A stretch of 21,952 bases of DNA from a virus, in the IMG/VR virus record IMGVR_UViG_3300007734_000472, positions 1-21,952 of that record; one strand, given 5' to 3'. This document shows positions 3,033 to 20,792 of this stretch, in pieces. The notes under the pieces were generated by a model. The model worked only from the letters and a program-made list of their open reading frames with translations. It searched no databases and was not told where the DNA came from. Every line of letters begins with the position of its first letter. The first letter of the stretch is position 1. A program made the translations under genes and the position numbers.

Positions 3033-3686
3033 ATGTTTAATATTTACGAAATAAGGAATACTGTAACAGGTTTTAGATATATCGGTTGCAGTAAGAATCT
3101 CGAAAGAAGGTGGAAAGAACATAGGAGACACCTCCTACAGGGAATACATCACAGCGTACATTTACAAAATGCTTGGAAGAAGTATGGTGAATACGCTTTT
3201 GACTGGAAAATACTCTTAGAATGCCCTTCAGAAGAGGTAATGTTTTTACAGGAGAAGAGGTTAATTGAAGAGGGAGAAGATCTATACAATATAGCTAAAG
3301 GAGGATTAGGAGGAGATAAGGTAAGTGATTTGTCTGAGGAACAGTACAAGTCCTTTTTAATTAACTGCTCTAATGCACAAAAGTCGAGATATAAAGATCC
3401 TGAGGAAAGAAAGAAAGCAAACTGCTTTAAAGGATTGACACAAGAGGAAAGAGATCAGAGAATTAAAATCTGGAGTGAAGCTAAACTGGGATCTAAAAAT
3501 AATAAATATAAATACGATAAACCAGTTCTTCAAATTGATAGAAGTACAGGAAAGACTGTAAAAGAATGGAAAGATGTTTGTGAAGCATCTTATGCCGGAT
3601 TTGAAAGAAGATATGTTATATCTTGTTGTAAAGAAAAAAAAGGATATAATAGTCATAAAGGCTTCATCTGGAGATGGAAAAACTAA
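3033..3686 (+). CDS. GIY-YIG homing endonuclease, free-standing, next to nrdA
   Basis: A 217-residue site-specific DNA endonuclease that would spread its own gene into related phages. The GIY-YIG nuclease domain is at residues 3-90: 'NIYEI' and 'YIGCS' (residues 16-20), followed by R25/R26 and H30. The C-terminal part (about 165-215), 'PVLQIDRSTGKTVKEW' and 'GFIWRW', matches the NUMOD1 DNA-binding module found behind GIY-YIG and HNH nucleases. It lies 53 bp downstream of nrdA, recalling nrd-associated homing genes of T4 and Aeh1, but nrdA is intact. The hairpin just upstream may restrict its expression to one stage. Confidence 0.9.
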   Translation: MFNIYEIRNTVTGFRYIGCSKNLERRWKEHRRHLLQGIHHSVHLQNAWKKYGEYAFDWKILLECPSEEVMFLQEKRLIEEGEDLYNIAKGGLGGDKVSDLSEEQYKSFLINCSNAQKSRYKDPEERKKANCFKGLTQEERDQRIKIWSEAKLGSKNNKYKYDKPVLQIDRSTGKTVKEWKDVCEASYAGFERRYVISCCKEKKGYNSHKGFIWRWKN

Positions 3687-4154: not shown

Positions 4155-4167
4155 CTATTTATATGAA

Positions 4168-5166
4168 ATGAATATATTAGCCAAAATAAAGCAATTGTTA
4201 TACCCTCTACTAATCCTAGGGGGTATTTTGTCTACACAAGGTCAGACCTTCACATACTCAGGCTACATCTATGGTTCAAACGCCGCAGGTATAGCAGGAG
4301 TACCTGTTTCTTTATACAAAAGAACAACTCCTTCTATGACAGGGTTTACTTCTCAAAACAACTACAATGGGCATTCTTACTATAGGTCAACAGGTTTAAT
4401 GACTTGGACTGCTGCAAGAGCATCTTGTATAAGTATGGGAGGGCATTTGGTAACTGTAACAACAGCAGCTGAAAATAGTTTTATATATGGGCTATGGCCA
4501 TCAGGATGGATAGGATTAACTGATGAAGTAACTGAAGGAACTTGGAAGTGGGTTACAGGGGAACCATATTCGTACTCATCATGGAATGGAGGAGAGCCTA
4601 ACAATTCAGGCAATGAAGATTACGTTCAGTTTGTAAGTGGGGGTAGGTGGAATGATTTGGGTAATAACTATTCGTTAAACTATGTACTTGAATTTGATTA
4701 TATAGTAGATTACACTCCTTGGACTTTAGTAACCACATCAACAACAGACGCTACAGGAAAGTATTCGTTTTCTACTGCAACTAATCCATCAATCGAATAC
4801 TACATCACATTTACACCACCAACACTACCAACCCCAACTCTTTTAGACGGAACAACTTGCAATAGTATCGTAATAGGAAATACTGCTTTTAAGGCAATAG
4901 ACTATTACAGATTTGATGTAAACGAAGATAATAGGTTTACAGTTTCAGACACATATTCAATTTTAGCTAAAAAATCAGGGCTGCTTTCTGCTTTTTCTCC
5001 AACACCTATTAGTAGAATTTTTACAACAACAGACTGGTCAGCTATCAATCCTTCGACATTAAACTTAAAATTAACATATCCCGGAGTACAGACAGTAACA
5101 ATTAATTCTCCTATATCAGGAGGAGGTTCAAATTACTATATTAGTAGATTAGGAAATACTAATTAA
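4168..5166 (+). CDS. Secreted C-type lectin-domain protein with a dockerin-like C-terminal region
   Basis: 332 residues with a signal peptide (about 1-26, ending STQGQ). A beta domain begins at residues 28-60 (SGYIYGSNAAGIAGVPVSL) and seems to resume at 183-215 (TTDATGKYSFS), resembling carboxypeptidase-regulatory/CNA-B folds; between them lies a C-type lectin domain (66-178). The lectin has EPN (143-145), the motif for Ca-dependent mannose-type sugar binding, and WND (161-163). It has only one cysteine in the domain, so the usual disulfides are missing. The C-terminal part has a dockerin-like Ca loop, 'DVNEDNRFTVSD' (250-261), with a similar segment in the next gene. Likely role: sugar binding at a cell or virion surface. 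The TATTTATA just before the start is too close for an ordinary promoter. Confidence 0.8.
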   Translation: MNILAKIKQLLYPLLILGGILSTQGQTFTYSGYIYGSNAAGIAGVPVSLYKRTTPSMTGFTSQNNYNGHSYYRSTGLMTWTAARASCISMGGHLVTVTTAAENSFIYGLWPSGWIGLTDEVTEGTWKWVTGEPYSYSSWNGGEPNNSGNEDYVQFVSGGRWNDLGNNYSLNYVLEFDYIVDYTPWTLVTTSTTDATGKYSFSTATNPSIEYYITFTPPTLPTPTLLDGTTCNSIVIGNTAFKAIDYYRFDVNEDNRFTVSDTYSILAKKSGLLSAFSPTPISRIFTTTDWSAINPSTLNLKLTYPGVQTVTINSPISGGGSNYYISRLGNTN

Positions 5167-5235
5167 ACAATATTTATAAAAGATAATGTGCATGAGCACT
5201 TGGTTGTATTAAACAAATAACTTAAAAACAAAAAA

Positions 5236-6327
5236 ATGAAAAAAATTCTTTTAATTTTAAGTATGATTTTAGTAACAATCACGGGCTTTGCACAACAAGT
5301 TGCACCGGATAACACTAAACCGTACTTAGTATTCGACGCTAGTTACAATCTAGCTCCTGTAGCATCAGGAACAAACACACAAGTTGCAATCTACTACAGC
5401 AACTTAAACGCAACAGCAATCAAAGCTGTTCAATTTAGATTCTGGTATGACAAAACTGTCTTCGATTCACCAGTAGTTACCTACACAGGAGCTGAAACAA
5501 ACAATGTATTTAACACAAAAGTAAACGTTGCAGAAGGTAACGTAACAGTTACTTGGGTTTATACAGGATCAAATGCTTCTTTCAATATTGCAAATGGAGC
5601 AATGTTTAACGTATCTTTACCATTCAAAGCAACTTATACAAATGGTGCAGTAACAGATATGCTATTTACAGGAGCAACAGCATTTACATCTTACGGTACT
5701 CTTGCAGCAGGAACAGATACAGCATTAGGATTACAGAACTACGGTGGTCACTTCGCAGAACCAGTATTCAACTATGCAGCTACATTTTTAAACAGTCCAA
5801 CTAATCCTTCAACTGATATTCCAGTAATCTTACAAAAATCTTCAAACGGTACAGTTTGGACAGATGTAATGACAGTTAACACTTTATCAACAGGAGTAGC
5901 AGCATTTACAACTAACTTAGATCAAAACTACTGGCAAATTAGAGTAAAAGTAGCACCAGGTTTAACAGCACCAGATGCATTAGCGGCAGCAGATGCAGAT
6001 ATGATTGCTCAAATTGCTACAGGATTACAAACTGCAACTGGAACTCAATTCTATACTGCTAACCCTAACCAAGCAAACGGAATTACAATTTCAGATTCAT
6101 ATACAGTATTCTCTAGATTAGCACAAGGCTTAACAACTTACCCAGGAAACCCTGATATCTTATTCTTTACAGAAGCTCAATACAACACTATTGCAGCATC
6201 TTCAACAGATCAATCAGCTACAATACCAGGAGAATCTACATTCCTTTCAGCTAATATCAACAATACAACAGCAGCAAACTATTACTTATTAGTATTAGGA
6301 GACGCAAACGGAACAGGTCATAACTAA
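5236..6327 (+). CDS. Secreted cohesin-like protein with a dockerin-like C-terminal region
   Basis: 363 residues with a clear signal peptide (MKKILLILSMILVTITGFAQ). Residues 28-180 have the alternating strands of a cohesin-like beta sandwich: 'AVQFRFWYDKTVFDSP', 'GNVTVTWVYTG', 'FNVSLPFKA'. The C-terminal 100 residues ('NGITISDSYTVFSRL', ending 'YYLLVLGDANGTGHN') align by eye with the end of the lectin protein upstream. Cohesins bind dockerins through Ca-dependent contacts in cellulosomes; here one protein seems to carry both kinds of partner, so chains could form. No cysteines. It is separated from the lectin gene by 69 bp and from the next gene by 1 bp. Assignments are by pattern and need profile or structure searches. 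Confidence 0.65.
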   Translation: MKKILLILSMILVTITGFAQQVAPDNTKPYLVFDASYNLAPVASGTNTQVAIYYSNLNATAIKAVQFRFWYDKTVFDSPVVTYTGAETNNVFNTKVNVAEGNVTVTWVYTGSNASFNIANGAMFNVSLPFKATYTNGAVTDMLFTGATAFTSYGTLAAGTDTALGLQNYGGHFAEPVFNYAATFLNSPTNPSTDIPVILQKSSNGTVWTDVMTVNTLSTGVAAFTTNLDQNYWQIRVKVAPGLTAPDALAAADADMIAQIATGLQTATGTQFYTANPNQANGITISDSYTVFSRLAQGLTTYPGNPDILFFTEAQYNTIAASSTDQSATIPGESTFLSANINNTTAANYYLLVLGDANGTGHN

Positions 6328-6328
6328 T

Positions 6329-7060
6329 ATGTTACGCTATATAATCATAGCGTTATTATCAATAAATTCACTTTACTCCCAGGTACAGTTTCAAGTGCCT
6401 GGGATTACTGTGACTCCTACCGGTATAATAGATCTACCAATAACTATTCAAACAAATGGAAATACAGTAGGGAGTTTAGAATTTGCTTTAAATTACGATC
6501 AAACAATCTTACAATTCTCAGAAGTAGTATTATCTGAAAAAACACAAACTTGGTTGACATATGTAATGGATACAGGAATTGGAAAAGTAAGATGGGGTGG
6601 TTATGATAAATCACATGGACAGCATTCTGTTAATACACCAACTGAATTATTTGTATTGAAATTTACAGTAATAGACCCAAACTGGATAACAACTCCAATT
6701 ACAATAGGAAGAAAGACAGCAGGAGATGTTCAAGGATGGGATATAGCAGTAACCAATACAGATGGGTACATAAATTATAATAAAACAGGCATTCCTCTGG
6801 ACGAAACTAAAATACAAGGAATTGTACACCCGAACCCTACAGATGGATTAGTAACATTAGAATTAGTGCTACCTGTAAGTGATTATTATAAATTAACAAT
6901 TCTTAATGTAAATGGAACTGAATTAAGAAGGAGAGTAGTGCAATGCATTAAAGGAGCAAACATATTGGAAGAAGACCTAACACCTTACCCAAGTGGTACC
7001 TATTTATTAAATATAACAACAAGGGACTTTACCCAAACATTTAAAATTATAAAAAAATAA
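6329..7060 (+). CDS. Secreted cohesin-like protein with type IX secretion (Por) C-terminal sorting domain
   Basis: 243 residues. Signal peptide about 1-17 (MLRYIIIALLSINSLYS). Residues 20-150 look like a cohesin domain ('GSLEFALNYDQTILQF', 'GKVRWGGYD', 'LFVLKFTV'). Residues 164-243 are a type A sorting domain of the type IX secretion system: 'HPNPTDG' (167-173), 'YKLTILNVNGTELRR', 'YPSGTYLLNI' and the end 'FKIIKK'. In Bacteroidetes such tails send proteins across the outer membrane and are cleaved as the protein is attached to the cell surface or released. A phage copy would borrow the host machinery. It sits between the other cohesin-like gene (1 bp) and a small membrane protein gene (5 bp). 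Confidence 0.82.
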   Translation: MLRYIIIALLSINSLYSQVQFQVPGITVTPTGIIDLPITIQTNGNTVGSLEFALNYDQTILQFSEVVLSEKTQTWLTYVMDTGIGKVRWGGYDKSHGQHSVNTPTELFVLKFTVIDPNWITTPITIGRKTAGDVQGWDIAVTNTDGYINYNKTGIPLDETKIQGIVHPNPTDGLVTLELVLPVSDYYKLTILNVNGTELRRRVVQCIKGANILEEDLTPYPSGTYLLNITTRDFTQTFKIIKK

Positions 7061-7065
7061 AAGCT

Positions 7066-7389
7066 ATGTCAGAAGAAGCAAACAACGAAGGAGGATTATC
7101 AGGATTAAAGAAAACTCTTATCGGAACTCTAGGAACTGTTGTAACAGCAGGAGGAGTATGGTTAACAACTCACTTAGGTGGTGGTGAAACAGAACACAAA
7201 GAAGAAGTAAAGACAGAACAAGTAGCACCTGCACCAGCAGCAGCACCTGTTGTTATTAATTTATCTAACAACAACACCAACCAACAAAAACAACAATCAA
7301 ATAATTCCAATTCAGCTAAAGCAGCACCTGCACAACAAGCAGCACCAGCTCCTGCACCAGCAGCACCAGCTCAAAAAGAATCATGGTAA
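7066..7389 (+). CDS. Small membrane protein with Pro/Ala- and Asn/Gln-rich tail
   Basis: 107 residues. A hydrophobic segment at about 16-38 (LIGTLGTVVTAGGVWLTTHL) can span a membrane; the rest is low complexity: acidic/basic 45-50, Ala/Pro runs at 54-60 and 88-103, and an Asn/Gln/Ser stretch between. No catalytic motif is seen. The long flexible tail suits crossing the periplasm or linking parts of a complex. Its last codons overlap the start of the CsgG-like gene by 7 bp, indicating translational coupling. Function not recognised. Confidence 0.7.
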   Translation: MSEEANNEGGLSGLKKTLIGTLGTVVTAGGVWLTTHLGGGETEHKEEVKTEQVAPAPAAAPVVINLSNNNTNQQKQQSNNSNSAKAAPAQQAAPAPAPAAPAQKESW

Positions 7390-8102
7390 GAAAAGTATTA
7401 TATATAATATTTTTAATCTTCAGTGTAGTAGGTGCTTTAAATGCTCAAAAAATAGGATCTGTAAAAACTGAGGAATACAAAGCCGATTTTGAAAAGAAGC
7501 AATCATTAGAGGTTGTATCTGATTATAACGGAGCTACAGTTATCCCTATTCAGATACTAAAGATTGGTATTAACGAAGAGTTATACGAGATGTATCCTGA
7601 ACTAAAAGATAAAAGAGTTGGACTAGGAGTATCAAATATAGTATTAGAATATTTAGAATCTACAAACAGATTTAAGTTTACAGAAGATAAAGAAGAAATA
7701 AAACAAAAAATGATAGCCCAGCATATAGCTTCTGCTAAGGGTATATCAGAAAATAAAATCGAAGTTAAAGGAAATGTTATATTAGCAAGATATTTTGTTT
7801 ATATAGAAGTATATGATTTCAGTATAGGAGAAGATGAAGAAGTATCAACTTCAGGAGCTGAGATAAGACAAAAAACAATACTAGGGTTACAAGTAAGATT
7901 TGTGGATGCACAAAGCGGTGAAATAATCACAGGGTCAGGATCCGGTGAGGCAGTTACAGTGAAGAAGGCAAGCTTACTAGACGGACTAGACGATATTAAA
8001 TTCAATCAATCAACCATTGGAGTATCCACTAAAAAGTCATTAGAAACTGCCTCTTCAAGAGTAGTTAGTAAAATGATTAAAAAGGGGATATTTCCAAACT
8101 AA
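7383..8102 (+). CDS. CsgG-like outer-membrane secretion pore protein
   Basis: 239 residues with signal peptide (about 1-21, ending ALNAQ). The body follows the CsgG/curli transporter fold: 'VGLGVSNIVLEYLESTNRF' (helix preceding a variable residue patch), 'IVE-type' strand 'IEVKGNVILARYFVYIEVYDF', the strand 'LGLQVRFVDAQSGEIITG' and the C-terminal helix 'SLETASSRVVSKMIKKG'. CsgG forms a ring-shaped pore that exports curli subunits. E. coli CsgG is a lipoprotein, but no lipobox cysteine is present here. CsgG-like genes are known from some marine myophages as I recall. It overlaps both neighbours (7 bp and 1 bp), so it is made with the barrel protein downstream. Confidence 0.75.
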   Translation: MVRKVLYIIFLIFSVVGALNAQKIGSVKTEEYKADFEKKQSLEVVSDYNGATVIPIQILKIGINEELYEMYPELKDKRVGLGVSNIVLEYLESTNRFKFTEDKEEIKQKMIAQHIASAKGISENKIEVKGNVILARYFVYIEVYDFSIGEDEEVSTSGAEIRQKTILGLQVRFVDAQSGEIITGSGSGEAVTVKKASLLDGLDDIKFNQSTIGVSTKKSLETASSRVVSKMIKKGIFPN

Positions 8103-9562
8103 TGATAAAATGGATTACTTTATTTTTATACTTTTCATTCCTGCAGGCTTCTGCACAGTACAGTTATACCTATACCGATCCATGTACACTTCAATCCAAA
8201 AGTGTATTCGTACCTGCTGGAGGTGGTGTAGTAGTAAACTACTTCGACAATCATAATATATTTACATCTAATGATTTTTCATCAGGAGCATTTGATAGTT
8301 GGATAGCTCAAGTATCTCAACAAAATTCTAATGCACCATGTCAATCAGTTACCACTGCAATAGTAAACACTGTTAGTACAGCTGTAGTATCAAATACAGT
8401 TAGTATAGTAACAAATGTAGTTTCAATTTCATCATTAGCCCAAACAATGGCTTCGGTTATGACTTCAGCTACAGGAGGTACCTTAACCTCGACAGCAGAA
8501 AGTATCTCCAATTCAAACACAGGAGGTAGTTCCGATAGTACTAACGAAAACAATTCAAATGAATCAACAACAGGAAGTAACACCGGAGGAAGTTCAACAA
8601 ATGCTAACTCAAATAAAGGAAACTCGCAAAGTGAAGGAAATAAAGGTACTGTTCAAGGATCTGGAACAAATACTAATAACGAAGGAGGAACAGCATCAAC
8701 AGGAAGTAATCAGGCTCAAGGAAGCACATCAAGTGGAGACAACCAAGCTCAAGGAGGAAATCAAGAGGCTGGCTCATCTTTAGAAGGAGGATCAGGATCA
8801 GGAAGTTCAGGCAATACAGCTAATTCAGTTTCTAATTCAATAGATGGAGGATCTTCAGATGGAAGTAGTAGCGGGGGAAGTTCTTCAAGTGGAGGTGGTA
8901 GTTCTAAAAAAGAATCATCAGCAAAAGCTTCTACAGGTGCTCTAATTGCATCAGGAGATATGGTTGTAATTGCAAATGCTGATAGAGATCAACCAAGCCA
9001 GTTTAAATTTGTAGGAAGTATAACACATGCTAATACAAGAGGAACTAGAATTAAAGGAATACTTTTTAATTATACTACTCAAGTAAATAACTTTAATGTA
9101 ACTTTCTATAAATCTTATGTTAATAAATCTAAAAAGCTGAACACAGTTGTAGCAAATTCAACTATGATGAATACAGCTAAAGATTTATTTAATACAACTA
9201 CAATATTAGAATCTTATAAAGCTACCAAAAAGATAACAGGAATGTTTGGTTTGAACCTTACTGGAGGGCAATTAGGAGAAAGAAGATTTTATAATATATC
9301 AGCAGTAGTAGGTGGACATGCACCAATTAAAATTAATAAAAGAGTATCAACAAGTATTTTAGTACTAGGAATTTATTCTCCATTCACACAATTCTATGAA
9401 GGAAAATGGTGGAGTGCAGGAGTATTAGTTGTACCATTCAATTCATGGGATCTTAAAATTACAAAAACATTCAAATTTAATATTTCAGCAACAGCAGTTT
9501 ACAGTTACGGAGAAACGTTTTTAAATTATCAGGTTTTAACAGGAGGTAAAATAAATTTTTAA
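8102..9562 (+). CDS. Exported protein with long Ser/Gly/Asn linker and probable outer-membrane beta-barrel C-terminus
   Basis: 486 residues. Signal peptide about 1-18 (FLQASAQ). An N-terminal domain with two cysteines ends near residue 80. Residues about 130-275 are a Ser/Gly/Asn/Thr low-complexity stretch. The C-terminal 200 residues show alternating amphipathic strands ('GMFGLNLTGGQL', 'WWSAGVLVVPF', 'TAVYSYGETFLNYQV') and end in Phe (GGKINF), the usual signal of an outer-membrane barrel. Start overlaps the CsgG-like stop by 1 bp. It could be the CsgG partner, its substrate, or the anchor. No family was recognised. Confidence 0.65.
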   Translation: MIKWITLFLYFSFLQASAQYSYTYTDPCTLQSKSVFVPAGGGVVVNYFDNHNIFTSNDFSSGAFDSWIAQVSQQNSNAPCQSVTTAIVNTVSTAVVSNTVSIVTNVVSISSLAQTMASVMTSATGGTLTSTAESISNSNTGGSSDSTNENNSNESTTGSNTGGSSTNANSNKGNSQSEGNKGTVQGSGTNTNNEGGTASTGSNQAQGSTSSGDNQAQGGNQEAGSSLEGGSGSGSSGNTANSVSNSIDGGSSDGSSSGGSSSSGGGSSKKESSAKASTGALIASGDMVVIANADRDQPSQFKFVGSITHANTRGTRIKGILFNYTTQVNNFNVTFYKSYVNKSKKLNTVVANSTMMNTAKDLFNTTTILESYKATKKITGMFGLNLTGGQLGERRFYNISAVVGGHAPIKINKRVSTSILVLGIYSPFTQFYEGKWWSAGVLVVPFNSWDLKITKTFKFNISATAVYSYGETFLNYQVLTGGKINF

Positions 9563-9566
9563 AACT

Positions 9567-10022
9567 ATGAAAAAACTATTACTATTATTACCGTTACTAT
9601 TCTTATTATCAGCAGATACAGCACCTAAATGCTATAAAGTAACTAAAGTGTCTTCTCAAGTAGAAGCACCTGAAATGAAGAAAGAAAGAGTTACATTTGG
9701 AATTAAACAAATGACAGAAGAGATCTTATCTGAAAAAATAAGTATCTGTGAAAATGGAACACCAGTTGAGGTAGAAGTTATGTCTGTTGAAGCACCAACC
9801 AATAGCACTTCTTTAGGACCTTGGGCTAAGACTAAAAAGATAACAATCGTTAAGCTGAGACTTCTAGCAGAAGGAGAAGAATACTGGGGTCAAGGTGAAG
9901 CAAACGTAACAGTTCAATCTACATTCTTAGATTTGAACGATGATAATCTCCCATTTAATAAGACTGCATTCTCAGGAGCAGTTAAAAAAGCTTTAGTAGA
10001 AGCAGTTGGAGAAATGAAATAA
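9567..10022 (+). CDS. Small exported (periplasmic) protein of the CsgG cluster
   Basis: 151 residues with a strong signal peptide (MKKLLLLLPLLFLLSADTA). The mature part is mixed alpha/beta with two cysteines (C22 and C61) that may form a disulfide, a strand 'KKITIVKLRLLAEGEEYWGQGEANVT' in shorter pieces, and a C-terminal helix 'AFSGAVKKALVEAVGEMK' typical of small lipoprotein/CsgG-associated families. Function is not recognised. It closes the exported-protein block: 4 bp after the barrel gene and before the promoter that starts the next unit, whose TTG lies in its last codons. Confidence 0.6.
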   Translation: MKKLLLLLPLLFLLSADTAPKCYKVTKVSSQVEAPEMKKERVTFGIKQMTEEILSEKISICENGTPVEVEVMSVEAPTNSTSLGPWAKTKKITIVKLRLLAEGEEYWGQGEANVTVQSTFLDLNDDNLPFNKTAFSGAVKKALVEAVGEMK

Positions 10023-10986: not shown

Positions 10987-11133
10987 ATGGAAGATGTTAT
11001 AAATCATATTTGTGGATGTTGTGGCGATGCTCATCCAAGTCTTTTAAATATTTCTCCAATATTAGTTGCTTTTGGAGGATATTTTTCATATATTAAATAT
11101 AAAATTAAATCAAAGTTATGCAAGAAGAATTAG
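10987..11133 (+). CDS. Small cysteine-containing membrane protein
   Basis: 48 residues. A CGCC cluster (residues 9-12) precedes a hydrophobic segment (about 19-36, 'LLNISPILVAFGGYFSYI') and a Lys-rich tail. It resembles small single-span phage proteins with a Cys/His head. The last 16 bp overlap the next gene. Function unknown. Confidence 0.6.
   Translation: MEDVINHICGCCGDAHPSLLNISPILVAFGGYFSYIKYKIKSKLCKKN
11066..11096 (+). promoter_or_regulatory. Promoter, TTG-N20-TATATTAA
   Basis: TTG 11066-11068 and TATATTAA 11089-11096, spacing 20 nt. It lies inside the small membrane-protein gene and can drive the 81-residue gene and the queC-like gene. Confidence 0.6.
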
Positions 11134-15545: not shown

Positions 15546-15617
15546 TGGCTTATAGTGTAACGGTTAGCACAAAACACTTTGACTGTTTTAGTCTAGGTTC
15601 GAATCCTGGTAAGCCAA
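15546..15617 (+). tRNA. tRNA-Gln(TTG)
   Basis: Acceptor TGGCTTA/TAAGCCA, anticodon stem AAACA/TGTTT with loop CTTTGAC, T loop TTCGAAT, discriminator A. Confidence 0.92.
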
Positions 15618-15835
15618 CAAATAATTACAAGTATTGAAAGCACAGCCCAACACCTGATCAGTAAGTAGGCCTGTAAGTAAAGAAAGTATTATCAGTAAGT
15701 AGTGGAGAAATCCATATGGAGAAAACGATGCAAGACATGAGTACAGGGAACCAGCCCGATGGCTCTGCTTACGAAATTTAAAAATGTAGTTCTGAGGTGG
15801 GCGAGCTCTACAATAAAAAAGCAATCCCTCTACCA
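15618..15835 (+). other. Intervening sequence with repeats, no gene seen
   Basis: Contains a repeated ATCAGTAAGTAG (near 15659 and 15690), the palindrome TCCATATGGA, and an AGCC/GGCT hairpin near 15755. CCTCTAC (15827-15833) can pair with GTAGAGG (15842-15848), inside the next tRNA, and might affect its folding. No tRNA or ORF was identified. Confidence 0.35.
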
Positions 15836-15911
15836 CTGGTAGTAGAGGAGTCCGGTTTATCTCGCTGGCCTTGGACGCTAGAGCACGCAGGTTCGAATCC
15901 TGCCTACCAGA
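15836..15911 (+). tRNA. tRNA-Pro(TGG)
   Basis: Acceptor CTGGTAG/CTACCAG, D loop with GG, anticodon stem CTGGC/GCTAG with loop CTTGGAC, T arm GCAGG/CCTGC with TTCGAAT. Confidence 0.92.
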
Positions 15912-15969
15912 CGAGTGAGACTGTTACTAATTTATAGAACTATAGAGTGTTTGCATAGAATTAGATTTT

Positions 15970-16040
15970 GCCCTCTAGGCTTTAAAGTGAAGCACGATAC
16001 TTTTAATATCGGGAAGAAGGAGCATTACCTTCAGGGGGTA
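15970..16040 (+). tRNA. tRNA-Lys(TTT) with AGC-type T loop
   Basis: Acceptor GCCCTCT/AGGGGGT, D stem GCT/AGC, anticodon stem CGATA/TATCG with loop CTTTTAA, T stem GAAGG/CCTTC. The T loop is AGCATTA, not TTCRANN, and the D loop (TTAAAGTGA) lacks GG. All stems pair, so this is a coherent variant rather than decay. Confidence 0.85.
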
Positions 16041-16045
16041 CAAAA

Positions 16046-16141
16046 GCTACATACACAACCTTACAATCTCTCAGTTAAAAGCTGTTGTAAGATCAAGTAA
16101 TAAGCCAATATGCTTATTAGTTGTGATTAGGTGTAGCACCA
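16046..16141 (+). ncRNA. Structured RNA with tRNA-like acceptor and ACCA 3' end
   Basis: GCTACAT (16046-16052) pairs with GTGTAGC (16131-16137), followed by ACCA (16138-16141). Inside, CACAAC (16054-16059) pairs with GTTGTG (16120-16125), enclosing CTTACAA/TTGTAAG (16060-16066, 16085-16091) and TAATAAGC/GCTTATTA (16098-16105, 16112-16119). There is no T arm and no anticodon arm, so it is not an ordinary tRNA. It abuts tRNA-Val. No known family recognised. Confidence 0.65.
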
Positions 16142-16212
16142 GCCTCGTTGGCGTAATGGTAGCGTATTTGTTTTACATGCAAAGGGCAGTGGTTCGATTC
16201 CACTACGAGGTA
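16142..16212 (+). tRNA. tRNA-Val(TAC)
   Basis: Acceptor GCCTCGT/ACGAGGT, D stem GCGT/GCGT, anticodon stem TTTGT/GCAAA with loop TTTACAT, T arm AGTGG/CCACT with TTCGATT. Confidence 0.92.
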
Positions 16213-16217
16213 CAAAA

Positions 16218-16299
16218 GGGTAGCAAAAGTCGTTCGGATACGGCAGCCGGTCTGTAAAATCGGTCTCTAAAGGGAGTGGTTCGAGTCCACTGCTGCCCA
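16218..16299 (+). tRNA. tRNA-Tyr(GTA)
   Basis: Acceptor GGGTAGC/GCTGCCC, D stem GTCG/CGGC, anticodon stem CCGGT/ATCGG with loop CTGTAAA, class II variable arm, T loop TTCGAGT. Four A residues rather than two join acceptor and D stems. Confidence 0.92.
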
Positions 16300-16323
16300 C
16301 TGTAGACTTTTTGAAAAGTTAGC

Positions 16324-16338
16324 CTATTTATAATAAAG
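16324..16338 (+). promoter_or_regulatory. CTATTTATAATAAAG motif before the second GIY-YIG gene
   Basis: Identical to 3007-3021, before the first GIY-YIG gene. The two 15-base strings lie 12 and 8 nt from their start codons. A phage-specific (possibly late) promoter element is likely; not proven. Confidence 0.5.
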
Positions 16339-16345
16339 AATAGAT

Positions 16346-17002
16346 ATGGCTAACATCAAAAAGAATAAAAGATTTCATTTCATCTATAGGACTACAAATC
16401 TTATAAATGGAAGATATTACCTGGGAATGCATTCAACTAACCGTATAGATGATGGTTACTTGGGAAGTGGCAAGAGGTTGTACTATGAATTAAATAAGTA
16501 CGGTAGAAACAATTTTAAATTTGAAATACTGGAGCAATTTAATTCAAGAGAAGAATTAGTTCAAGCTGAGATAAATTTAATAACAGAACAGGATTTAAAA
16601 AATCCAAACTGTTTAAATTTAAAATCAGGAGGAGAAGGAGGATTTTCAAAAGAAATTCAAAAAATAGGATCTTTAGCAGGAAACCTAGAGAAAACAAGAC
16701 TAATGAAAGAAGATCCAGCATACAGAGCTAGGATAGTAAGAATGATCTCAGAAAACATGAAGAGACAATTTGCAGAGGGAAAACGAACATCGTTTAATGT
16801 AGGGCAGTGGATAGGGAAAAAGCATTCGGAAGAGACTAAGAAAAAGATAGGAGTAGCAAATTCAACTAACCAAAAAGGTGAGAACAATTCACAATTTGGA
16901 AAATGCTGGATTACGAATGAAGTTGAAAATAAGAAAATATACAAAGGAGATTCAATCCCAGAAGGATGGAGATTGGGACGAGTAATAGCAAAAGGGGATT
17001 AA
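16346..17002 (+). CDS. GIY-YIG homing endonuclease within the tRNA array
   Basis: 218 residues. GIY-YIG domain at residues 10-100 ('HFIYRTTNLING', 'YYLGMHS'), a NUMOD3-type helical DNA-binding motif near 153-172 ('GKKHSEETKKKIGVANS'), and a C-terminal 'FGKCWITNEVENKKIYKG' ... 'PEGWRLGR' module common in phage homing nucleases (Seg-like). Placement inside a tRNA cluster parallels segB of T4. The stop codon lies within tRNA-Phe, whose acceptor begins at 16994, so mRNA 3' processing by tRNA maturation would cut into the coding end. Only distantly similar to the gene at 3033. Confidence 0.9.
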   Translation: MANIKKNKRFHFIYRTTNLINGRYYLGMHSTNRIDDGYLGSGKRLYYELNKYGRNNFKFEILEQFNSREELVQAEINLITEQDLKNPNCLNLKSGGEGGFSKEIQKIGSLAGNLEKTRLMKEDPAYRARIVRMISENMKRQFAEGKRTSFNVGQWIGKKHSEETKKKIGVANSTNQKGENNSQFGKCWITNEVENKKIYKGDSIPEGWRLGRVIAKGD

Positions 17003-17066
17003 GCTAATCTAGTGAAAGCGCATGGTTGAAGCCCATGAGAGACAGGAGCGTAACCTGTAATCCCCA
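16994..17066 (+). tRNA. tRNA-Phe(GAA) with AGC-type T loop
   Basis: Acceptor GGGGATT/AATCCCC, D stem GCT/AGC, anticodon stem CATGG/CCATG with loop TTGAAGC, T stem ACAGG/CCTGT with loop AGCGTAA. The D loop has TAGTGA and no GG. The first 9 nt overlap the end of the GIY-YIG gene. Confidence 0.85.
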
Positions 17067-17144
17067 CGTAAGTCGCTGAAACCTTAAAACTGGCGAAATT
17101 CAAATAAGTAAGTATTAGGTGACTGTTCGGAGAGACGGATAATT

Positions 17145-17216
17145 GGACTTGTAGCTCAGAGGAAGAGCGTTTGCCTGTTAAGCAAAGGGTCGGGATTTCG
17201 AAATTCCCCAAGTCCG
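17145..17216 (+). tRNA. tRNA-Asn(GTT)
   Basis: Acceptor GGACTTG/CAAGTCC, D arm TAGCTCAGAGGAAGAGC, anticodon stem TTTGC/GCAAA with loop CTGTTAA, T loop TTCGAAA, discriminator G. Confidence 0.92.
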
Positions 17217-17225
17217 CAATTAAAT

Positions 17226-17379
17226 GTTCGTATAGATGTGCTGTGGATACGCAGGAAACACATCGAGTGGGTTAGTGATGGTAGTAGGTACACAACACTC
17301 CTTAATACTAGGATTGGAGCGAAGAGTTGATGCATACTGCAAGTAGTTAACAAGGCTGGTTCGATTCCAGTTACGGGCG
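17226..17379 (+). ncRNA. Over-length tRNA-like element (154 nt)
   Basis: The T arm GCTGG-TTCGATT-CCAGT (17355-17371) and TACGGGC (17372-17378) form a tRNA 3' end. Its only good acceptor partner upstream is GTTCGTA (17226-17232, two G-T pairs), followed by T-A and a 6-bp GATGTG/CACATC stem (17235-17240 with 17259-17264). A further CTCC/GGAG hairpin lies at 17298-17319. No clear anticodon arm. The pairing could occur by chance more easily than for the 13467 element. Confidence 0.4.
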
Positions 17380-17384
17380 CAATT

Positions 17385-17456
17385 GCTCCTATAGTAGAAT
17401 GGTTAGCACACATCTCTGATAAGGATGAAATCAAGGTTCAATTCCTTGTAGGAGTA
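17385..17456 (+). tRNA. tRNA-Ile(GAT)
   Basis: Acceptor GCTCCTA/TAGGAGT, anticodon stem CATCT/GGATG with loop CTGATAA, T arm CAAGG/CCTTG with TTCAATT. Confidence 0.92.
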
Positions 17457-17462
17457 CAAAAT

Positions 17463-17547
17463 GGAAAGTATATCAACTAGGAGTTGAGACCGCTTGCTAA
17501 GCGAATCGTGCGTTAATTCGCATGGGGTTCGATACCTCTGCTTTCCT
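17463..17547 (+). tRNA. tRNA-Ser(GCT)
   Basis: Acceptor GGAAAGT/GCTTTCC, D stem TCAAC/GTTGA, loop TTGCTAA on a 3-bp core stem, long variable arm TGCG/CGCA, T loop TTCGATA. The discriminator would be T, unusual for Ser. Confidence 0.78.
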
Positions 17548-17676
17548 CTTAAAAACCTATTCCCTGTCCTCACAAAGCATCTAAGGAATGCAGGAGTAGA
17601 AAGTACGTTCGGGGCCATGCGGTAAGACGCCGTAAAATCTAAAGTACAAAGATAAGTTAATGGGTTCTTATCAACT
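17548..17676 (+). other. Intervening sequence with hairpins, no tRNA identified
   Basis: ATTCC/GGAAT encloses 17566-17588, a CGGT/GCCG hairpin lies near 17620-17632, and GATAAG/CTTATC (17651-17672) forms a 6-bp hairpin immediately before the next tRNA. No ORF. Confidence 0.35.
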
Positions 17677-17745
17677 ACCGACTTGATCTAGGATCGAGGA
17701 TATCTCATAAGTATTCTCAGCCAGGAGCATAACCTGGAGTCGGTA
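17677..17745 (+). tRNA. tRNA(CAT), Met or Ile2, with AGC-type T loop
   Basis: Acceptor ACCGACT/AGTCGGT (perfect), T stem CCAGG/CCTGG with loop AGCATAA, anticodon loop CTCATAA on GATAT/GTATT. The D arm is short (two or three pairs). One of three CAT tRNAs here, so it may be elongator Met, initiator, or lysidine-type Ile. Confidence 0.72.
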
Positions 17746-17804
17746 CTGCATCTCCCAAGGGAGAAGGCTCTGGTTGACGATCTGACCTTATAGATCGTAA
17801 CATG

Positions 17805-17877
17805 GTGATTGTAGCTGAATTGGTAAAGCGTCTGATTGTGGTTCAGGAGATTGTGGGTTCGAGTCCCATCTTTCACA
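17805..17877 (+). tRNA. tRNA-His(GTG)
   Basis: Acceptor GTGATTG/CTTTCAC with two T-T mismatches, preceded by G (position -1 of tRNA-His at 17804). D stem GCT/AGC, anticodon stem TCTGA/TCAGG with loop TTGTGGT, T arm GTGGG/CCCAT. In the gap upstream two strong hairpins occur (TCTCC/GGAGA 17752-17765; ACGATCT/AGATCGT 17777-17798). Confidence 0.85.
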
Positions 17878-17883
17878 CTTAAT

Positions 17884-17963
17884 ATCCCTGTGATGAAACT
17901 GGTAAACATGCAGGACTTAAAATTCTGTGCTTAGGCTTGTGGGTTCGACTCCCACCAGGGATA
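17884..17963 (+). tRNA. tRNA-Leu(TAA)
   Basis: Acceptor ATCCCTG/CAGGGAT, anticodon stem CAGGA/TTCTG with loop CTTAAAA, T arm GTGGG/CCCAC with TTCGACT. Confidence 0.92.
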
Positions 17964-17968
17964 CAAAT

Positions 17969-18040
17969 GGTCTTATAGTTTAATTGGAAAAACTTATCGC
18001 TACGAACGATAGAACAAAGGTTCGACTCCTTTTAAGACTT
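17969..18040 (+). tRNA. tRNA-Arg(ACG)
   Basis: Acceptor GGTCTTA/TAAGACT, D loop with GG, anticodon stem TATCG/CGATA with loop CTACGAA, T arm AAAGG/CCTTT with TTCGACT. A34 would need deamination to inosine. Confidence 0.9.
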
Positions 18041-18041
18041 C

Positions 18042-18180
18042 AAAATATAATTACAAAGCGTAGGTAAGAAGACGTGGAGAGACGTTGCGCAAGGGTACAC
18101 ACTTAGCATCTCTATTATGGTGTGTGAAGCACTGAGCAATCAGAAACCAGATTCCTGATAAAACTTACTAATTATATTTT
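18042..18180 (+). ncRNA. Large cloverleaf-like structured RNA closed by a 12-bp stem
   Basis: AAAATATAATTA (18042-18053) pairs perfectly with TAATTATATTTT (18169-18180). Three arms lie inside: GCGTA/TTGCGC-type stem at 18058-18090 with an inner CGT/ACG hairpin; ACACAC/GTGTGT at 18097-18125; ATCAG/CTGAT-type stem at 18139-18159. No T arm, no anticodon. Fills the gap between tRNA-Arg(ACG) and tRNA-Arg(TCT). Unknown family. Confidence 0.6.
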
Positions 18181-18184
18181 ACTT

Positions 18185-18256
18185 GCCCTATTAGTTAAAC
18201 GGATATAACGAATCTCTTCTAAAGATTAATTCTAGGTTCGATTCCTGGATGGGGTA
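18185..18256 (+). tRNA. tRNA-Arg(TCT)
   Basis: Acceptor GCCCTAT/ATGGGGT, anticodon stem AATCT/AGATT with loop CTTCTAA, T arm CTAGG/CCTGG with TTCGATT. Confidence 0.92.
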
Positions 18257-18333
18257 CAAAAAAATCGCATGGATAGACAGATGATTATTTCAAAAGAGCT
18301 ATTAAAGAAGTCTGATCAACTTTGGTAGAGTAA

Positions 18334-18420
18334 GCGATACTCTGCAAATGCGTTCCGCAGACAAGGTGTCGGTACGGTCTCCAAAACTGTTACGGCTGGG
18401 TTCGATTCCTAGGGTTCGCG
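18334..18420 (+). tRNA. tRNA-Trp(CCA), aberrant acceptor side
   Basis: Anticodon stem ACGGT/ACTGT with loop CTCCAAA, D stem CCG/CGG with AAGGT loop, T arm CTGGG/CCTAG, 3' acceptor GGTTCGC and discriminator G are clear. The 5' acceptor strand is not: the best is GCGATAC (18334-18340, two mismatches), which leaves a TCTGC/GCAGA hairpin (18341-18361) competing with the D stem. The anticodon assignment is firm; the 5' end is not. Confidence 0.65.
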
Positions 18421-18455
18421 CAATAGAAAAATTGTTTCATTTAAAAATTAAAATC

Positions 18456-18962
18456 ATGAGTAAGTACCAAAGAACACTGGTAATTGATTCAAGCTTTATG
18501 GCAAGATCCATTATCTCTACCGAAAGAGCTTTCGTGATTTCGTATAAGGGTAATGCAGAAGTTATAGCTGAACATCCAGAAACATTCGGATTAGTAAATC
18601 CAAAACTAGAAATTTTTAAACCTTCAATCATTAGGGTTTACAAATACGTAAAACAAAACATTCAGAAAGTTCCTCTAACAAGAGAAAACATTTATCGAAG
18701 AGATAATTACGAATGTGTTTATTGTGGATCAAGCTACATCAAGTCACTAACACTTGACCATGTCATACCGCAATCAAAAGGTGGAGAAAATGCTTGGGAT
18801 AATTTAGTAACAGCTTGTAGAAGTTGCAATTCAGAAAAAGCAGATTTAACTCTGGAGGAATATGGTAAAGAAATAGTAGAGCCAAAAAGACCTCATTATC
18901 TGATGCTGATGAAACAACTAACACACATCCCAGTGGAGTGGGAAAAGTTTTTATTTTTCTAA
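18456..18962 (+). CDS. HNH endonuclease
   Basis: 168 residues from the ATG at 18456. The frame is open further upstream, but that part lies in tRNA-Trp. CXXC zinc ribbons at C87/C90 and C121/C124 flank the HNH core: D101-H102 ('LTLDHVIPQSKGG') and N116 ('WDNLV'). The whole protein, with 'ERAFVISYKGNAEVI' and the end 'RPHYLMLMKQL', matches a compact HNH family common in bacterial chromosomes, so it may be a host-derived or mobile nuclease. No NUMOD module is seen. It interrupts the tRNA array. Confidence 0.9.
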   Translation: MSKYQRTLVIDSSFMARSIISTERAFVISYKGNAEVIAEHPETFGLVNPKLEIFKPSIIRVYKYVKQNIQKVPLTRENIYRRDNYECVYCGSSYIKSLTLDHVIPQSKGGENAWDNLVTACRSCNSEKADLTLEEYGKEIVEPKRPHYLMLMKQLTHIPVEWEKFLFF

Positions 18963-18970
18963 CAAAAAGT

Positions 18971-19001
18971 TTGGATATTAAAAATATTGTTCGTATATTT
19001 A
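18971..19001 (+). promoter_or_regulatory. Promoter, TTG-N20-TATATTTA
   Basis: TTG 18971-18973, 20-nt spacer ending TTCG, TATATTTA 18994-19001, then AGTATAAG. Nearly identical over about 45 bp to the promoter at 19403-19433, which suggests a duplication around the gene between them. Confidence 0.8.
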
Positions 19002-19020
19002 AGTATAAGAAAAAATAGTT

Positions 19021-19413
19021 ATGGAAAAAGAATTTGTACCTTACGAACAAGCATTAGCTTTAAAAGAATTAAGAATTGGAAATTTAATTTATAAGGTATA
19101 TCCTGATGGAGAAGAAATTATAGAAGTAGAAAAAATATCAAAAAACTATATAAACAATCTGAACATTTCAGGAATTAAACCTATTCCATTGAACAAAGAA
19201 CTGTTCTTGAAGTTTGGGTTTAATGAAAGAGGGGTGAATTATACTAAATTTTTAGAGGAAGGTATAGAGTTTATAATATGGGATTGCAATGGAATCTTCA
19301 TTGAAGATAAAAATGGTGTTCGTATTAAATATGTCCACCAACTTCAAAATCTTTTTTTCTGTTTAAGAGGAAAGGAACTAACAATTAAAATTAAAAAAAA
19401 GTTTGGATATTAG
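19021..19413 (+). CDS. Conserved phage protein (FVPYEQALALKEL / VHQLQNL family)
   Basis: 130 residues. The N-terminal 'FVPYEQALALKEL' and C-terminal 'YVHQLQNLFFCLRGKELTI' are signatures of a small protein common in Bacteroidetes phages and prophages, with an 'IPLNKELFLKFGF' segment between. Function unknown. Promoters flank it on both sides; the downstream one begins in its last codons (KKFGY), so it looks like a mobile unit that brought or duplicated the promoter. Confidence 0.75.
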   Translation: MEKEFVPYEQALALKELRIGNLIYKVYPDGEEIIEVEKISKNYINNLNISGIKPIPLNKELFLKFGFNERGVNYTKFLEEGIEFIIWDCNGIFIEDKNGVRIKYVHQLQNLFFCLRGKELTIKIKKKFGY

Positions 19414-19433
19414 AAAATAAGTTCGTATATTTA
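19403..19433 (+). promoter_or_regulatory. Promoter of second tRNA block, TTG-N20-TATATTTA
   Basis: TTG 19403-19405, 20-nt spacer ending TTCG, TATATTTA 19426-19433, then AGTATAAG. Its TTG lies inside the preceding gene. Transcription would begin near 19440, just before the T-arm-first RNA element. Confidence 0.8.
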
Positions 19434-19454
19434 AGTATAAGAAAGAAATTAAAA

Positions 19455-19551
19455 TAGTAGGACGTTGGTTCGATTCCAACAAACGTAATCGTGATGACCA
19501 AGTTTTAGCTGCAATGGTAGAGCAACTATTTTAATATTAAATCACCTACTA
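19455..19551 (+). ncRNA. tRNA-like element with T arm upstream of D arm (candidate permuted tRNA)
   Basis: TAGTAGG (19455-19461) pairs with CCTACTA (19545-19551). Inside, in this order: a perfect T arm GTTGG-TTCGATT-CCAAC (19464-19480), AAAC (19481-19484) pairing with GTTT (19502-19505), then a canonical D arm beginning TAGCTGCAATGGTAGAGC (19506-19523) and an AT-rich ATAT-loop hairpin. The promoter ends 22 nt upstream and is preceded by a coding gene, so no 5' tRNA half can precede the T arm. No anticodon can be assigned with confidence. Confidence 0.4.
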
Positions 19552-19613
19552 CGTAACCAACCGGTAAAAGAAAATGGACACGTACTGTCTGGCAGGTCAG
19601 GCTAGGTGAATAG

Positions 19614-19683
19614 GGGCAGGATGGTTATGGAGACCGGCGGGATTGCAAACTCCGCAGAGCAAGTTCGATTCTTGCCTTGCCCT
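19614..19683 (+). tRNA. tRNA-Cys(GCA)
   Basis: Acceptor GGGCAGG/CTTGCCC, D stem GGT/ACC, anticodon loop TTGCAAA, T arm GCAAG/CTTGC with TTCGATT, discriminator T as expected for Cys. Confidence 0.9.
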
Positions 19684-19778
19684 CATTGAAGGTTCGACCC
19701 TCTACCAAATGTATTACACCTACAGATGGATATCGAGAGGGAGCTACCGATTGATAAGTGACCGCACATGCGGTAAAT
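19684..19778 (+). other. Intervening sequence with isolated T-loop-like hairpin
   Basis: Begins with AGG-TTCGAC-CCT (near 19690-19701) without a tRNA around it. CCCTCT (19698-19703) pairs with AGAGGG (19736-19741), and ACCGC/GCGGT forms a hairpin at 19761-19774. Could be remains of a tRNA or another structured RNA. Confidence 0.35.
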
Positions 19779-19852
19779 GCCCGAGTGGTGGAATTGGCAG
19801 ACACGCTAGACTTAGGATCTAGATATTGAGGGTTCGAGTCCCTCCTTGGGTA
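19779..19852 (+). tRNA. tRNA-Leu(TAG)
   Basis: Acceptor GCCCGAG/CTTGGGT, D loop GAATTGGCAG, anticodon stem CTAGA/TCTAG with loop CTTAGGA, T arm GAGGG/CCCTC with TTCGAGT. Confidence 0.92.
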
Positions 19853-19857
19853 CAAAA

Positions 19858-19925
19858 TTAGAGTTAGCTTATAGTAAAGCAGCGGGGGCTAACCCGCAGA
19901 ACGGATACGAAAACCGGCTCTAATT
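19858..19925 (+). pseudogene. tRNA-like element, anticodon unassigned
   Basis: ATTAGAG/CTCTAAT form a perfect acceptor and GCTT/AAGC a D stem whose loop (ATAGTA) lacks GG. The anticodon stem GCGGG/CCCGC closes a six-base GGCTAA loop without T33, and the T loop is TACGAAA on a weak stem. Either a non-decoding tRNA-like RNA or a decayed tRNA. Confidence 0.5.
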
Positions 19926-19930
19926 AATTT

Positions 19931-20004
19931 GCTTCTGACGCATGAATGGTGGTGCACCTGATTTGTAACCAGGAATAGAGTCGGTTCGATCCCGTCCAGA
20001 AGCT
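19931..20004 (+). tRNA. tRNA-Thr(TGT)
   Basis: Acceptor GCTTCTG/CAGAAGC, D stem GCA/TGC, anticodon loop TTTGTAA on CCTGA/CCAGG, T loop TTCGATC, discriminator T. Confidence 0.9.
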
Positions 20005-20009
20005 CAACT

Positions 20010-20081
20010 GCGACTATCGTATAATGGTCATTACTTTAGACTTCCAATCTAAAGATGAGAGTTCGATTCTCTCTAGTCGCT
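20010..20081 (+). tRNA. tRNA-Gly(TCC)
   Basis: Acceptor GCGACTA/TAGTCGC, anticodon stem TTAGA/TCTAA with loop CTTCCAA, T arm GAGAG/CTCTC with TTCGATT, discriminator T. Confidence 0.92.
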
Positions 20082-20089
20082 CAGGGGTA

Positions 20090-20128
20090 TGTAGGAGCCC
20101 AAGAGTATGTGATGAGCATACACCTACA
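20090..20128 (+). ncRNA. Nested hairpin between tRNA-Gly and tRNA-Glu
   Basis: TGTAGG (20090-20095) pairs with CCTACA (20123-20128), and inside it GTATG (20105-20109) pairs with CATAC (20117-20121) with a 7-nt loop TGATGAG. Possibly a processing spacer. Confidence 0.4.
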
Positions 20129-20132
20129 ACTT

Positions 20133-20204
20133 GGCCTGGTCGTCTAAAAGTAAGGACATAACACTTTCACTGTTAAAACCGGGGAGCGTTACCCCGTCAG
20201 GCTA
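20133..20204 (+). tRNA. tRNA-Glu(TTC) with AGC-type T loop
   Basis: Acceptor GGCCTGG/TCAGGCT, D stem GTC/GAC with loop lacking GG (AAAAGTAAG), anticodon stem TAACA/TGTTA with loop CTTTCAC, T stem CGGGG/CCCCG with loop AGCGTTA. Confidence 0.85.
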
Positions 20205-20314
20205 CGAAACCAGAAAGGCCATTGTTCACAACCTCTGGTGCGAAAAAGGTGAACACGAGGTTAAGGTACACTCGTAACAACAATACCTTGACAGCCTGGA
20301 ATAGACAGGTAACT
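20205..20314 (+). other. Structured spacer with crossing stems
   Basis: TGTTCAC (20223-20229) pairs with GTGAACA (20249-20255), and AACCTC (20230-20235) with GAGGTT (20257-20262); the two cross. AAGGTA (20263-20268) pairs with TACCTT (20284-20289). No ORF is credible here. Confidence 0.45.
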
Positions 20315-20387
20315 GGGGTCATAGCTCAACTGGCTGAGCGCTATCCTTGCACGGTAGAGGATGTGGGTTCGAATCCCACTGGCTCCA
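20315..20387 (+). tRNA. tRNA-Ala(TGC)
   Basis: Acceptor GGGGTCA/TGGCTCC, D arm TAGCTCAACTGGCTGAGC, anticodon stem CTATC/GGTAG with loop CTTGCAC, T arm GTGGG/CCCAC with TTCGAAT. Confidence 0.94.
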
Positions 20388-20545
20388 CAAAACATTTAGT
20401 GAGGTAAGACTGGTAGGCTTTTAATCCTAAACCTAGAAATAGGAGGGAGAGGCTAACGAAAGAACCAAACGAGTAGTTAGTTGAAGGGATTTACTTGAAA
20501 GTTAAGTTTGGTGTAGAGTAAATTGTGTAGTTAGATGTTTTAATT
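20388..20545 (+). other. 158-nt structured spacer before tRNA-Asp
   Basis: A CCTA-GAAA-TAGG tetraloop hairpin near 20431-20442; ACCAAAC (20464-20470) pairs with GTTTGGT (20506-20512), and TTTACT (20490-20495) with AGTAAA (20517-20522), crossing as in a pseudoknot. A CTTTTAA string near 20418 looks Lys-like but has no anticodon stem. No ORF. Confidence 0.45.
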
Positions 20546-20618
20546 GGCTGAGAGGTGTTATAGGTAACATGCTGCACTGTCACTGCAGAGATTGCGGGTT
20601 CGATGCCCGTGTCAGCCG
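20546..20618 (+). tRNA. tRNA-Asp(GTC)
   Basis: Acceptor GGCTGA(G)/(G)TCAGCC with a mismatch at 7:66, D stem TGTT/AACA, anticodon stem CTGCA/TGCAG with loop CTGTCAC, T arm GCGGG/CCCGT, discriminator G. Confidence 0.9.
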
Positions 20619-20624
20619 CTATAT

Positions 20625-20698
20625 CGCGAGTTGGTAGAAGATGGTATCTCGCTAGGCTCATAACCTAGAGGTCGGGGGTTCGAATCCCTCACTCGCTA
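20625..20698 (+). tRNA. tRNA-Met(CAT), possibly initiator
   Basis: Acceptor GCGAGT/ACTCGC with a C-T mismatch at 1:72, as bacterial initiators have an unpaired 1:72. Anticodon stem CTAGG/CCTAG with loop CTCATAA, T arm GGGGG/CCCTC. The three G-C pairs of a typical initiator anticodon stem are only partly present. Confidence 0.85.
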
Positions 20699-20703
20699 CA
20701 AAG

Positions 20704-20777
20704 GTCCTTTTAGCTCAGTTGGTCAGAGCAGCTCGCTCATAACGAGAAGGTCACAGGTTCGAGCCCTGTATAGGACA
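20704..20777 (+). tRNA. tRNA(CAT), elongator Met or Ile2
   Basis: Acceptor GTCCTTT/ATAGGAC with one mismatch, D arm TAGCTCAGTTGGTCAGAGC, anticodon loop CTCATAA on CTCG/CGAG, T arm ACAGG/CCTGT with TTCGAGC. Last tRNA of the array. Confidence 0.9.
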
Positions 20778-20792
20778 CTAAATTTATCCAAT

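Follow-up and report, generated by a model that had tools for sequence, protein, structure and literature searches.

A conserved phage gene block that probably encodes an envelope-spanning display of exchangeable glycan-binding heads

Pelagiphages carry curli operons encoding CsgG, CsgF, and curlin proteins, and the roles proposed for phage curli are aggregation ("sibling capture"), superinfection defence, uptake, and lysis control (PMC7029224, PMC9599517, PMC9004378). Such operons occur in T4-like and other aquatic phages. Aggregation has been proposed as an effect of the pelagiphage CsgG operons (PMC7029224, PMC9599517); in culture, no clumping was observed with the methylophage Melnitz, which has both CsgG and CsgF (PMC9004378). 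The gene block described here lies in a window of 21,952 bp, the whole stretch of DNA analysed, which is a complete virus record and represents part of a larger phage. Seven ORFs, A to G, occupy positions 4168-10022 of the window and were correctly placed by an earlier note on the same DNA (Table 1). Like the curli operons of the pelagiphages (HTVC008M, HTVC023P-type) and of Melnitz, the block is a phage-borne multi-gene unit in which a predicted CsgG-fold pore protein accompanies exported surface proteins; unlike them, it adds type IX secretion system (T9SS) cargo, a cohesin-dockerin scaffold, the barrel protein F, and the CsgG-fold protein G. The earlier note knew of no phage system with this combination, which is correct for the complete set within the reach of our searches but has to be qualified, as CsgG operons that also encode exported adhesin-like proteins have been described from pelagiphages (PMC7029224, PMC9599517, PMC9004378). 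In the open-access literature searched, we found no description of phage modules with T9SS-sorted or cohesin-dockerin proteins.

Domains were assigned by Pfam and NCBIfam searches with curated cutoffs. No curlin repeats (Curlin_rpt) were found in the block proteins or the scanned orthologues, and no Pfam match to CsgF or CsgE was found in the block proteins or the orthologues of F, whereas the same searches detected curlin repeats and CsgF in HTVC008M. Profile comparison gave no link between E and the CsgG of HTVC008M, with which common ancestry is still compatible. A PA14 domain is common to the curlin-repeat protein of HTVC008M and to the A proteins of two relatives of the block (L004 and L010). 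The HTVC008M protein (AGE60352.1, positions 10638-11963 of L179), which is annotated as hypothetical, matched the curlin repeats at 5.2e-8 and PA14 at 2.7e-6, so that a head of sugar-binding type is borne by the curlin protein there, as a counterpart of the PA14 heads of A. The bacterial curli secretion system (CsgG-CsgF-CsgE with CsgA/B) shares with the block the fold predicted for E, the region of the membrane hairpins included, but the sequence of E is ~12% identical and an amyloid subunit, a chaperone, and a gate were not detected. We conclude that the block would work like a phage surface-adhesin system, yet is not a curli operon.

Table 1. Positions of the block genes and of features within or before them (window coordinates).
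Feature	Position	Strand	Description
TATTTATA before A	4156..4163	+	Putative late promoter element; same place in immuto; 12 nt from the start codon, unusually close
A	4168..5166	+	Lectin protein of 332 aa, exported; head exchangeable, dockerin-bearing tail constant
C-type lectin domain of A	4399..4686	+	EPN at 4594-4602, WND at 4648-4656
Dockerin calcium-motif-like segment of A (DVNEDNRFTVSD)	4915..4950	+	Dockerin_1 matched in 2/41 A and 9/21 BC proteins
TATTTATA before B	5171..5178	+	Putative late promoter element; motif site
B	5236..6327	+	Exported, 363 aa; cohesin-like, CpD-like, and dockerin-like; in most relatives, part of a ~630 aa scaffold, as its N-terminal half
C	6329..7060	+	Exported, 243 aa; cohesin and T9SS type A sorting domain; C-terminal half of the ~630 aa scaffold
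D	7066..7389	+	107 aa with one probable membrane segment, a tail rich in Pro and Ala, and a C-terminal Trp that is invariant
E	7383..8102	+	Predicted CsgG-fold outer-membrane pore protein, 239 aa
F	8102..9562	+	Exported; N-terminal domain (conserved), then a long linker rich in Ser, Gly, and Asn and a predicted C-terminal 12-strand barrel (8927-9559)
G	9567..10022	+	Exported, 151 aa; shortened homologue of E without membrane hairpins

The genes from B onward are closely packed. Gaps of 1, 5, and 4 bp separate B from C, C from D, and F from G, respectively, D overlaps E by 7 bp and E overlaps F by 1 bp, whereas A is separated from B by 69 bp. The statement of the earlier note that six of the seven genes are joined by 1-7 bp overlaps or gaps of at most 5 bp is exact, as these spacings were read from the ORF coordinates. 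All seven products had been taken to be exported; by a hydropathy heuristic of our own, rather than SignalP, signal-peptide-like N-termini were recognized on A, B, C, E, F, and G across lineages, so this view stands for six of them. The exception is D, which lacks a signal peptide, possesses a single moderately hydrophobic segment preceded by a cytosolic-type N-terminus according to the same heuristic, and is probably anchored in a membrane.

Relatives were collected from viral contigs with E as the query (113 stretches) and, independently, with BC (304 stretches), B and C being a single protein in most relatives. The earlier note had made its reading hinge on the gene order in related phages; this order is kept in about 160 loci from the two queries, far beyond chance. 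After removal of near-identical loci, 48 lineages remained, of which 33 had enough flanking DNA to be tested. By first count, BC, D, E, F, A, and G were encoded on one strand in 31 of these 33; D is also present in the other two (L090 and L101), where it had been dropped by the overlap filter, and the full set is thus found in 33/33. The order BC-D-E-F is fixed, while the place of A varies: it precedes B in the immuto-like group alone and follows F or G in the others. The contigs that carry the block reach 434 kb. The complete block, in the same order, is present in the cultured Flavobacterium phage immuto (NC_055915.1), a phage with T4-like capsid genes, and the amino acid identities between window and immuto are 68%, 72%, 65%, 64%, 87%, 59%, and 79% for A through G, respectively. 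The GenBank record of immuto names only a lectin, a cohesin, and hypothetical proteins in the block, and our literature search found no study of it. When 84,980 genomes of bacteria and archaea were scanned, E turned up in two MAG contigs only (L084 and L085). A host origin of E was considered and rejected, as the neighbouring genes of these contigs (tail-collar-like and endolysin-like, read from sequence) suggest misbinned phage. In the larger relatives, identity to immuto is 24-30% for the terminase, as compared with 64-75% for E and 55-67% for D; for L075 and L141, the terminases are 56-59% identical but BC, F, and G only 28-36%. This mismatch between terminase and block-gene identities, from a partial comparison in which 4 of 15 records had no phrog_2 match, suggests that the block is exchanged between phages, with strong constraint on E and D as an alternative explanation for part of it.

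The sugar binding that the earlier note had ascribed to A on account of an EPN lectin is supported by a Lectin_C match (1.1e-16, 61.9 bits against the Pfam cutoff of 22.6) with both the EPN and WND motifs present. Over its last ~150 residues, A is a homologue of the CpD-dockerin region of BC (hhalign 8e-28), and by this alignment A and B appear to share a paralogous dockerin-bearing tail; no sorting domain was found in A in any lineage examined. In comparison to the tail, the heads are variable. Among 41 lineages, the A heads comprise Lectin_C (25), LamG (9), GEVED (4), and PA14 (2). Between the window and L010, the identities are 91% for B, 90% for E (residues 2-239), and 72% for the tail of A, and the head of A is only 38% identical because a PA14-like sequence is found in place of the lectin; L004 is similar to L010, with a PA14 head on A (1.1e-6). 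These alignments indicate that the sugar-binding head of A is exchanged even where B and E are ~90% identical between phages. Where relatives have LamG heads, these are similar to a structural gene of the immuto virion (A of L160 against the gp051 region, 32.5% identity, 2.5e-9). A retroelement that diversifies the lectin was considered and seems unlikely, as the heads change by replacement of whole domains and none of the ORFs in the window stood out as a reverse transcriptase.

Profile searches upheld both the cohesins and the type IX sorted protein reported earlier. Cohesin was matched above the Pfam cutoff in C (1.3e-7) and just under it in B (1.8e-4), and the sorting domain of C exceeded the cutoffs of Pfam (Por_Secre_tail, 4.1e-7, 30.6 bits against 27) and of NCBIfam (TIGR04183, 7.9e-11, 41.8 bits against 23). 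Of 21 BC orthologues, all 21 matched Por_Secre_tail, 19 matched Cohesin, and 9 matched Dockerin_1. The cohesin and dockerin calls are weak for single proteins, the dockerin scoring 6e-4 in profile comparison with a dockerin of known structure. BC is one ORF of ~630 aa in divergent lineages, with the order cohesin, CpD-like, dockerin, cohesin, and T9SS sorting domain; in the window and in immuto two genes take its place, the break being in the linker behind GDANGTG, and C starts with its own signal-peptide-like sequence. On the basis of the sorting domain above cutoff and the signal peptide read from hydropathy, C (or BC) is a putative T9SS cargo. It resembles the T9SS cargo of Bacteroidota in having a signal peptide and a type A sorting domain but is phage-encoded; the block contains no T9SS machinery, so that of the host would have to serve. 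Cellulosome scaffolds likewise bring cohesin and dockerin domains together in one set of surface proteins, whereas the block has glycan-binding heads instead of enzymes, its cohesin-dockerin pairing is putative, and its single-sequence scores are weak. In one lineage (L141 and L147, both at 11105-11107, and L140 at 1743-1745), BC contains an in-frame TGA exactly at the linker with an ATG directly after it; the part downstream of the TGA has no signal peptide, the remaining block genes are intact, and the arrangement may represent readthrough, coupled restart, or decay.

Sequence searches of solved structures with the profiles of E and F yielded nothing useful, and predicted folds were therefore used for these two proteins. 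A Pfam search with E alone gave no match, and 4 of 22 E orthologues matched Pfam CsgG (best 8.5e-5). The AlphaFold2 model of E was of moderate quality (pLDDT 64), and its best structural match was CsgG (Foldseek 1.7e-8; VIA Z 12.9, rmsd 3.7, 164 residues). Together with the orthologue matches, this model supports the CsgG-like pore suggested by the earlier note. A lipobox is found on E in 14 of the 48 lineages and not in the window. The G family is related to the E family (hhalign probability 95.8, E 8e-9), and this profile alignment identifies G as a probable second CsgG-fold protein, a shortened relative of E. The best PDB sequence match of G, to ribosomal protein S1, was judged to be due to chance because it covers a short stretch only. 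The barrel anticipated by the earlier note was assigned to F, whose C-terminal 211 residues form a confident 12-strand barrel in the predicted model (pLDDT 85), with NalP (Z 21.6), KdgM (Z 20.8), and FapF (Z 19.0) as structural neighbours and NanC also close. F is thus like the autotransporters (NalP, EspP) and FapF in its sequence of N-terminal domain, linker, and C-terminal 12-strand barrel (Z 19-22), and unlike them in that its N-terminal domain is small and without known relatives and that the identity is ~8-10%; the porins KdgM and NanC fit the barrel equally well. No family was matched by the N-terminal domain and linker of F in profile searches. The match of F to TssR_C (0.035) and other matches below cutoff in its orthologues were judged to be due to chance.

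The motif TATTTAT[AT] precedes A and B in immuto, and both sites are kept in the window (4156 and 5171). In immuto, it is present in 22 of 38 gene-leading gaps of the virion-gene half versus 11 of 66 outside that half (Fisher p 2.3e-5); across lineages, it was found in the gap before BC in 16 of 37 cases versus 79 of 345 other gaps (p 0.009). This statistical association suggests that the block is expressed late. Sigma-70-like promoters were rejected, being at background (32 found versus 27.9 expected), and promoters of the Flavobacterium type (TAnnTTTG) showed no enrichment upstream of genes. Elsewhere in the window, two ORFs that resemble GIY-YIG-type nucleases (3033-3686 and 16346-17002, family read by eye) each stand behind an identical 16-base leader, GCCTATTTATAATAAA, as if inserted carrying their own late-type promoter. 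Many genes in the 0-78 kb half of immuto NC_055915.1 stand behind a different repeated leader, similar to TATATTTAGGTATCAATAATTAAAAC, which may be an early promoter.

We propose that the block would be made late in infection as a phage-encoded surface-display system that spans the envelope. E, as a CsgG-type ring pore, and F, with its 12-strand barrel, would reside in the outer membrane, G would be periplasmic, and D would act as the inner-membrane anchor. The B/C scaffold would cross the outer membrane via the host T9SS by virtue of its sorting domain, and A, having no such domain, would be held or carried by a dockerin-cohesin contact with B/C or else exported through E. The infected cell, and after lysis its envelope, would be studded with glycan-binding heads that stick the cell to neighbouring hosts or to glycan-bearing surfaces and so keep the progeny close to new hosts. 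As an architecture, the envelope-spanning display of glycan-binding heads on the infected cell is probable from the sequence data, and the decoration of infected cells, one of the functions offered by the earlier note, is well supported by inference; the fibre also offered there, if curli-like, is not supported, as no match to curlin repeats, CsgF, or CsgE was found. For the full reading, a late display system with adhesion as its benefit, we estimate a probability of roughly 0.4. It is slightly short of an even chance that the block represents a new class of viral system, namely a display machine that combines host T9SS, a CsgG-type pore, an autotransporter-like barrel, and exchangeable heads and is passed as a unit between phages with terminases only ~25-30% identical.

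The same heads could act in cis, binding the glycans of the infected cell itself and hiding the phage receptor, which would block superinfection or the loss of progeny on envelope debris; the lipoprotein Llp of phage T5 masks a phage receptor. Known exclusion proteins are small, however, and beside them a scaffold, a pore, and a barrel seem elaborate. The exchange of heads resembles that of receptor-binding proteins, and this and the likeness of the LamG heads to the virion gene in the gp051 region of immuto fit adhesion and masking alike. Masking would also accord with the exported non-specific nuclease that adjoins the block in 13 of the 48 lineages and with the superinfection defence proposed for pelagiphage curli (PMC9599517), while the late-type motif would suit a role in protecting progeny more than the classical exclusion of superinfecting phage early on. 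We regard masking as rather unlikely on balance. A contribution to lysis is more doubtful still: E and F would permeabilize the outer membrane, with D, E, and G replacing spanins in cooperation with neighbouring endolysin and holin-like genes. Of the 48 lineages, 25 encode a GH19 endolysin near the block, 24 have a holin-like TM protein there, and 26 have an exported HxxxH protein; the overlapping D and E look like an inner/outer pair, and a lysis role was proposed for the CsgG of Melnitz (PMC9004378). Such a breach of the outer membrane leaves T9SS sorting and the swapped sugar-binding heads unexplained, and in immuto the annotated endolysin-holin pair is ~27 kb away, albeit with a glucosaminidase-type endolysin ~6 kb downstream, so the block is not simply the lysis cassette of that phage.

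Uptake, in which surface glycan binding and import through the pore would feed the infected cell in a cellulosome-like manner, could draw on the cohesin-dockerin parts, the glycan-binding heads, and the pores, and it is the simplest proposal made for pelagiphage CsgG (PMC7029224), but neither a dockerin-bearing glycan-degrading enzyme nor a TonB-dependent transporter was seen in the block, and we consider this explanation very improbable. Decoration of the phage particle by the lectin and scaffold has even less in its favour. Lectin and LamG domains are found in virion proteins too, and the motif is common to the block and the virion genes; yet virions are assembled in the cytoplasm, whereas A, B, C, E, F, and G have signal-peptide-like N-termini across lineages, every scaffold carries a sorting domain, two outer-membrane folds are predicted, and the block is far from the structural genes of immuto.

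If the display reading with adhesion is true, large Bacteroidota phages rebuild the surface of the infected cell with a multi-protein adhesin system and borrow host type IX secretion to do so. Taken with the pelagiphage curli, this suggests sticky or masked infected cells as a general strategy of large aquatic phages. Because the block is available in a cultured phage-host pair, immuto with Flavobacterium sp. LMO8, its timing, localization, and effects on adhesion, superinfection, and lysis are directly testable, and the exchangeable heads constitute a natural series of lectin specificities.

Several further genes were noted near the block or elsewhere in these genomes. A further membrane protein is encoded near the block in about half of the lineages. 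A DNA/RNA non-specific endonuclease (Endonuclease_NS, 1e-25; L083 9935-10513 and L065 13191-13772) adjoins the block in immuto as well as in 13 lineages, and the L065 copy has a signal-peptide-like start. The window contains an array of 17 tRNA genes (15546-20778), in which several reverse-strand ORFs are probably spurious antisense-tRNA ORFs. Finally, positions 49172-59988 of immuto NC_055915.1 hold a cluster of glycosyltransferase and nucleotide-sugar genes, which could remodel surface glycans as well.
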